Assembly (NCBI GenBank): GCA_963921795.1
Contig: OY997642.1
Coordinates: forward strand, 43,948,333-44,012,332
Length of the DNA: 64,000 nt
Reading direction: 5' to 3'
DNA from: Nannobrachium achirus
Taxonomy: Eukaryota > Chordata > Actinopteri > Myctophiformes > Myctophidae
Made by a program: the position numbers and the translations under genes
Notes under the pieces: generated by a model
Told to the model about the DNA's origin: nothing
Database searches by the model: none
The model's input: the letters and a program-made list of their open reading frames with translations, nothing else
Shown: piece by piece, positions 35,733-54,106 of the stretch
How positions within the stretch are numbered: the stretch's first letter is position 1
How the letters are laid out: each line of letters opens with the position of its first letter

Positions 35733-36116
35733 TCACAGAGTTATAAGAGGCTCTGGTTTCTCCACCTCTGCCTTCTCTATCAGCTTGTTGGTGTCTATCA
35801 CGTCAGGCTGGGAGCACTCGTGGTTGAAGTAGAGTGGATTGTCAAAGGTTGACAAGGGACGTCCAGACTTCTTATAGAGGAGGAGAGCAGTGACCGCTAG
35901 GACTGAGAGCACCGTTAATACCAGCACCACTACCAACGCTGAGTGGGCACGATGAGGTTGATGAGTTCCCTCTTGTTTATGAGCAGCTACACAATCAAAG
36001 GAGCAAAAAAATATCAGTCAAATATTCAGTAAAAGCTAATATTCAGGAATTACAGTGGAAAATTCCTCTGATAAATAAATGAATCTTACCAACTGTTGGC
36101 AACTGTTCTGTTATCT
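35733..36116 (-). CDS. juxtamembrane, transmembrane helix and cytoplasmic tail exons
   Basis: Exon 36116-36090 (27 nt, ITEQLPTV) and exon 35986-35733. The latter encodes a hydrophobic helix LVVVLVLTVLSVLAVTALLL, a KKSGR stop-transfer and a tail containing STFDNPLYFNHECSQPDVID and ending EPLITL. FDNPLYF matches the FENTLYF-type endocytosis signal of MRC1 (family knowledge), and an acidic IEKAEVEKPE stretch follows. The stop codon is at 35733-35735. A hAT MITE end (CACCACTG) lies immediately downstream at about 35,713-35,722. Confidence 0.87.

Positions 36117-54106: not shown

Follow-up and report, generated by a model that had tools for sequence, protein, structure and literature searches.

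The gene described here is probably a tandem duplicate of MRC1, the mannose receptor gene. Into the intron between its first and second C-type lectin domains (CTLD1 and CTLD2) a two-exon cassette for an F-type lectin domain (FTLD) would have been inserted, and in the present assembly of Nannobrachium achirus the gene has been inactivated. It lies on the minus strand of a 64,000-nucleotide stretch of DNA, the window (C5:43948333-44012332), and genome searches covered the 1.66-Gb assembly in its 564 contigs. As assembled, this window copy is predicted to yield no membrane receptor. The sequence does not support the original prediction, a membrane-anchored endocytic receptor with a working F-type lectin: no signal exon was found, a stop precedes the transmembrane (TM) helix, and MRC1 copies with CysR, FN2 and CTLD1 are present on the same chromosome. 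The locus may nevertheless represent a former in-frame chimera.

The gene consists of two FTLD exons (54106-53586) lying in phase 5′ of an MRC1-type series of CTLD2 to CTLD8, with a TM helix and tail (53008-35733). The CTLD exons were placed through reading frames and tblastn searches using segments of human MRC1, and were corrected against two neighbouring copies, A and B. The corrected model contains 24 exons, with AG and GT at all internal boundaries except the exit of a cut CTLD5 exon. Neighbouring exon phases match throughout, the exit phase of the cut exon having been set by hand from copy B. CTLD2 is spread over three exons (53008-52841, 50637-50483 and 50319-50206), as are CTLD3 together with the start of CTLD4 (49578-49463, 49303-49155 and 48592-48393) and CTLD4 (47297-47185, 47092-47017 and 45503-45350). 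CTLD5 occupies 44575-44412, 43975-43914 and the cut exon at 43783-43686, and a single exon (42295-42153) holds its end and the start of CTLD6. The remainder comprises CTLD6 (41785-41680, 40233-40091 and 39836-39734), CTLD7 (38847-38615 and 38384-38219), CTLD8 (37913-37740, 37645-37529 and 36540-36373) and the exon for the TM helix and cytoplasmic tail (35986-35733), all on the minus strand. The tail contains FDNPLY, an instance of the F-x-N-x-x-Y pattern that we take to be an endocytosis motif. An apparently too-short CTLD4 intron was considered as an additional lesion and rejected, as the intron measures 92 bp and is in phase with the acceptor that both neighbouring copies use.

Besides the FTLD, Pfam returned a series of Lectin_C matches in the minus frames. 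Among PDB entries, CTLD2-3 match residues 340-608 of the macrophage mannose receptor 1 structure 5xts (356 bits over two stretches); this entry ranks third, behind two LY75 chains that score slightly higher (357-358 bits) over four stretches, and the corresponding stretch of one LY75 chain scores 138 bits. The domains of the window copy are certainly above chance, and the predicted MRC1-type CTLD2-8, TM helix and tail are upheld by Pfam, tblastn, the 5xts match and kinship to copies A and B. Of the traits of the mannose receptor family, the TM helix, tail motif and sequence kinship of CTLD2-8 are all present. The eight CTLDs typical of MRC1, MRC2 and PLA2R are not, the window copy having CTLD2-8 only, with CTLD5 interrupted. 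More partial copies of MRC1 CTLD7, CTLD8 and TM segments occur in the window at 19843-23347 (minus strand) and 25020-28396 (plus strand), in opposite orientations.

The FTLD is encoded by exon 1 (54106-53815, minus strand; phase 1 in, phase 2 out) and exon 2 (53731-53586, minus strand; phase 2 in, phase 1 out), the latter ending in CTG ahead of a GTAGGT donor. Identification of these as F-type lectin exons directly upstream of the CTLD series, with the expected His and R-x-D-x4-R, is confirmed by Pfam (PF22633, E 5e-16) and by matches to FBP32 of striped bass (3cqo, E 3.4e-88) and an eel lectin (1k12, E 2.6e-34). With spacing counted by eye, the pattern reads H-x26-R-x-D-x4-R/K, presumably the fucose motif of F-type lectins, and marks a putative fucose site. 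The shared direction and phase of FTLD exon 2 and CTLD2 also hold as predicted, phase 1 to phase 1. However, extracellular modules usually join 1-to-1 and random phases agree one-third of the time, so the phase match is weak evidence of a fusion. When the window FTLD is compared with 22 other copies, identity is 92-100% in the 83-bp intron, 85-91% in exon 1 and 86-92% in exon 2; the lectin exons thus seem to change faster than their own intron.

FTLD exons match the genome 80 times at about a dozen places, on C5 in the window only, and the best match elsewhere in the assembly reaches a protein identity of 83% for exon 1 and 88% for exon 2. At the DNA level, the similarity extends from the exons across their intron and into the flanks, with 83-88% identity in the main blocks and less at locus L027. 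The whole dispersed unit, composed of the exon pair and its flanks, occupies 53051-54262 on the minus strand and holds a further repeat at 53259-53525. Its downstream end is the end of a high-copy repeat (53051-53133, minus strand), which meets a 53009-53050 (minus strand) remnant of the MRC1 CTLD1-CTLD2 intron. Homology to other units stops at 54262 upstream and at 53051-53059 downstream, and MRC1 intron homology stops at 53049 against copy A, 42 bp from the CTLD2 exon, or at 53028 against copy B. The two homologies therefore meet at a junction within the CTLD1-CTLD2 intron.

The 210-bp downstream flank of the unit is matched from base 17 or earlier at seven places including the window, each within ~6 kb of an FTLD pair, and its last 75-80 bp are far more widespread (best 40 of 1427 candidates scored). 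Six units compared by eye share a common sequence up to GCAGCTTTAATT, past which the window, L019 and L022 diverge and L023, L024 and L025 continue into a shared further repeat. It looks as though the FTLD unit was carried along by one end of a mobile element; alternatively, a single repeat insertion was followed by segmental duplication. Transposition of the unit is not proven by these comparisons, and against it stand the upstream boundaries, which vary between copies, and the three of six downstream ends that run on. The upstream flank of the FTLD was also sought further up in the window, and no recurrence was found there.

Upstream of the FTLD, Pfam and tblastn searches of the minus strand from 54 to 64 kb detected no CysR, FN2 or CTLD1, whose absence had been predicted. 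CysR gave no tblastn match in the window above 24 bits, none of the 25 genome matches to FN2 lies at the window copy, and the next 10 kb upstream (L029), scanned in a single frame, contain no Pfam match. On these negative results, a CysR-FN2-CTLD1 start further upstream was rejected. A simple scan for a phase-1 signal-peptide exon, at a relaxed threshold, likewise gave no candidate in 54107-59911. The same kind of scan detects such exons for copy B, an FTLD array on C15 and a gene encoding SRCR domains on C1; it also lists many chance candidates in other stretches, and gives no convincing exon for copy A. The next gene upstream is represented by a caspase-domain exon (59912-60454, minus strand), 5.8 kb from the FTLD.

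Within this interval lies a fragment of a young dispersed element (54260-56014, plus strand), truncated at 54260, at the start of the FTLD flank. Copies on C13, C16 and C24 match it at 97-99% identity along 1.14 kb and at 95-99% in a second block, and these copies extend further on the FTLD side. Since FTLD-flank homology ends at 54262 and the element fragment starts at 54260, the junction resembles a deletion breakpoint, one side of which falls in the element, and the missing front end would best be read as such a deletion. The frame of the element suggested BEL/Pao Pol, but Pfam gave no match, and this name was not adopted.

Three MRC1 copies form a tandem cluster, the window gene being the third; copies A and B are found on the same chromosome and strand with FN2 at C5:44105635 and C5:44137353, respectively. 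Among 151 matches scored, these two alone closely resemble the window CTLD2; a related gene is found on C21 (FN2 at 40496289). Both copies contain CysR, FN2 and CTLD1 exons 5′ of CTLD2, and copy B, ~130 kb from the window copy, has a signal peptide (exon at 44139472, from the simple scan), CysR, FN2 and CTLD1-8. Between the window copy and copy B, 20 of the 22 compared exon rows are 91.4-99.4% identical, where the row for C4b used an old exon boundary; the low rows are C6b (80.5%) and C8a (68.1%), the latter where copy B has extra bases. Relative to the window copy, ~78 extra bases, open in frame, are found within the first CTLD8 exon of copy B (C5:44121866-44121946).

Indels between these two copies point to a long history as a coding gene. 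Their exons differ by 144 substitutions and six gaps in 3166 aligned bp, none of the gaps frame-breaking, whereas their introns differ by 325 substitutions and 96 gaps in 4712 aligned bp, 70 of the gaps not being multiples of three. At the intron rate, ~47 frame-breaking exon gaps would be expected in both lineages together. It follows that, unless gene conversion intervened, the coding sequence of the window copy was maintained over most of the period after its split from copy B, and the gene probably worked until recently. No internal stop occurs in 923 codons of 19 exons, a count that excludes C4a, C4b, C8a and the final 8 bases of the cut exon. Coding constraint could also be mimicked by gene conversion from one copy to another, and CTLD3 exons 1 and 2 of the window copy are closer to copy A than to copy B. 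The nonsynonymous to synonymous rate ratio is 0.66 on the window branch, 0.65 for copy B and 0.59 for copy A, and alone indicates neither constraint nor decay. Its use as proof of decay was dropped, because the window branch is like copy B and FTLD pairs range from 0.63 to 1.25 against 22 copies.

The chain had been predicted to be open through to the TM helix, but it is broken in CTLD5. A 613-bp element with TTAA at both ends (43073-43685, minus strand), which we take to be of the piggyBac class, cuts the third CTLD5 exon (starting at 43783) at 43685, just short of its donor. The frame ends at an in-frame TGA at 43602, ahead of CTLD6 and of the TM helix, which lies 3′ of the stop. Three phase-1 GTs precede position 43602 and score no higher than -1.5, versus 0.5 to 7.2 for other donors of the gene; judged by these scores, there is no credible alternative donor before the stop. 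The insert has 39 other copies that are 99-100% identical (best 40 of 1888 candidates scored, including the window). In CTLD4, the window copy reads WID at the place of WND, presumably part of the sugar and calcium site, which is retained in copies A and B. The CTLD5 element diverges by 0-1% from its listed siblings and the upstream element by 1-5%, compared with 6.9% in introns for the MRC1 duplication. Both elements thus look younger than the duplication, and divergence suggests an order of duplication, constraint and then loss.

In the preferred reading, duplication of MRC1 would have given a tandem paralogue, and a two-exon FTLD cassette would have entered its CTLD1-CTLD2 intron. Because the cassette begins and ends in phase 1 and sits in a phase-1 intron, splicing would place a 146-residue lectin before CTLD2 and leave the frame unshifted. 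As judged from indels against copy B, the paralogue would have been constrained as coding for most of its history. Later, by the order of divergence, the signal peptide, CysR, FN2 and CTLD1 would have been lost at the young mobile element junction, and a still younger piggyBac-like element would then have cut CTLD5 ahead of the TM helix. The likeliest product before these losses would be an MRC1-type receptor in which splicing either placed the FTLD between CTLD1 and CTLD2 or passed over it. The FTLD insertion has only an upper bound on its age, and it may thus postdate the loss of function.

FTLD units at other loci bear on whether such a domain can be spliced into a receptor. On C1 (8.268-8.276 Mb; L015, C1:8266001-8276000, plus strand), an SRCR gene contains an FTLD pair in its first intron, and the signal exon (2153), the FTLD (6191-6702) and two SRCR exons (8101-8414 and 9465-9773) are all of phase 1. 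This locus is a candidate FTLD-SRCR chimera, and comparison of its unit did not demonstrate the repeat end that bounds the window unit. The region of its signal exon is matched at 12 other places, strongly at 11 (C3, C14 and C5) and weakly at one (C2), none near an FTLD match, so the FTLD probably entered one SRCR gene copy only. On C15 at 62.74 Mb (L016-L018, C15:62742001-62772000), one convincing signal-peptide exon is followed by nine FTLD pairs at a spacing of ~1.8-4.2 kb, apparently forming a long multi-FTLD gene; weaker signal-peptide candidates also occur inside the array. More FTLD exon clusters, mostly more diverged, are found at C2:45.74-45.86 Mb and C8:8.91-8.92 Mb. At C15:40.57 Mb, joining of the FTLD to a saposin-like exon was rejected, since that exon starts in phase 0 and the donor is of phase 1. 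Partners at C14, C2:8.29 Mb and C8:59.39 Mb were also rejected, as no extracellular domain was present in the gene-sense frames of each 10-kb locus.

These other copies also bear on a rather unlikely reading, in which FTLD and receptor never became linked and a solitary fragment landed beside an already front-less MRC1 copy, with no joint translation. An in-frame TAA stands right after GGT-AGG-TAC in 23 of 25 other exon 2 ends (a count that skips two L026 rows, where the alignment ends early), so that exon 2 might also be the last exon and end the protein. Likewise, in a Pfam scan of five solitary FTLD loci, from which L024 and L025 are left out, L022 (which has a reverse transcriptase match), L023 and L026 lack an extracellular partner domain in 10 kb, L019 has an exon in the wrong phase and only L015 has a fitting SRCR exon; the window FTLD, too, is preceded by no signal-peptide exon detected in 54107-59911. 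Against this, the donor GGTAGGTAC is retained in all 25 of the other exon 2 ends, and the convincing signal exon ahead of the nine C15 pairs suggests that the donor is spliced there. Moreover, coding constraint on CTLD2-8 would require a front end of some kind during most of that history.

A working membrane receptor with an N-terminal F-type lectin, a missed signal exon and splicing around the CTLD5 insert is very improbable. Splice dinucleotides and phases are intact from FTLD exon 1 through CTLD5 exon 2, as are the FTLD sugar motif, TM helix and tail, but the 5.8 kb up to the caspase gene hold no detected signal exon, the stop at 43602 precedes the TM helix with no credible way around it, and CTLD4 has exchanged WND for WID. 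It is only a little less improbable that the junctions are assembly errors, or that this haplotype is a rare null allele with an intact gene elsewhere in the species. The near identity of the CTLD5 insert to its other copies means that it could be polymorphic, and the MRC1 cluster is repetitive; however, the window is free of any N, the best other FTLD in the assembly is no closer than the protein identities given above, and CTLD2 has only A and B as close matches.

As a tentative extension, the FTLD pair may be a mobile phase-symmetric cassette, carried with a high-copy repeat end into phase-1 introns of unrelated immune receptor genes (the MRC1 copy on C5 and the SRCR gene on C1) to give in-frame chimeras, of which the MRC1 chimera would have worked and then just been lost, and the SRCR one may be alive. 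This would represent young exon shuffling of one lectin domain in two symmetric exons, splice-compatible in two unrelated receptor genes, with siblings lacking it remaining for comparison. If expressed, the SRCR chimera would offer a direct view of how fish receptors gain new sugar-binding domains. With the window receptor probably dead, the headline of a membrane lectin receptor is gone.

The layout of F-type with C-type lectin had been proposed as new, which does not hold for teleosts: their FTLD-CTLD association is already reported, according to the part of PMC5712786 that recounts Bishnoi et al. 2015, along with mosaics in Drosophila (furrowed/CG9095) and Hydra. Among titles and abstract starts in part of the open-access literature, no printed FTLD-MRC1 or FTLD-SRCR fusion in fish was found. 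Unlike the furrowed-type CTLD-CCP chain, the window gene has seven MRC1-type CTLDs; the teleost FTLD-CTLD proteins are known by that description only. With MRC1 (CD206) and its tandem expansions, such as chicken MRC1L-A to E (PMC4229073, in part), the window copy shares CTLD2-8, the TM helix, the tail and a tandem array on one chromosome. It differs in lacking the signal peptide, CysR, FN2 and CTLD1, in having an FTLD in their place and in its cut CTLD5. Tandem MRC1 arrays occur in birds, turtle and lizard, and the copies in the species examined have intact frames, according to the same portion of that source. The eel lectin AAA (1k12) and striped bass FBP32 (3cqo) share the FTLD sequence and the His and R-x-D-x4-R motif, and FBP32 has two exons per domain, as does the window FTLD (PMC5712786, in part). 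In contrast to these fish F-type lectins, the window FTLD is a single unit adjoining CTLD exons, with no signal exon found. Oyster bindin F-lectin repeats, as described in the same part of PMC5712786, likewise involve duplicating FTLD exon units with a suspected role for retroposition, but whereas those repeats lie within one gene, the units described here are scattered over several chromosomes.
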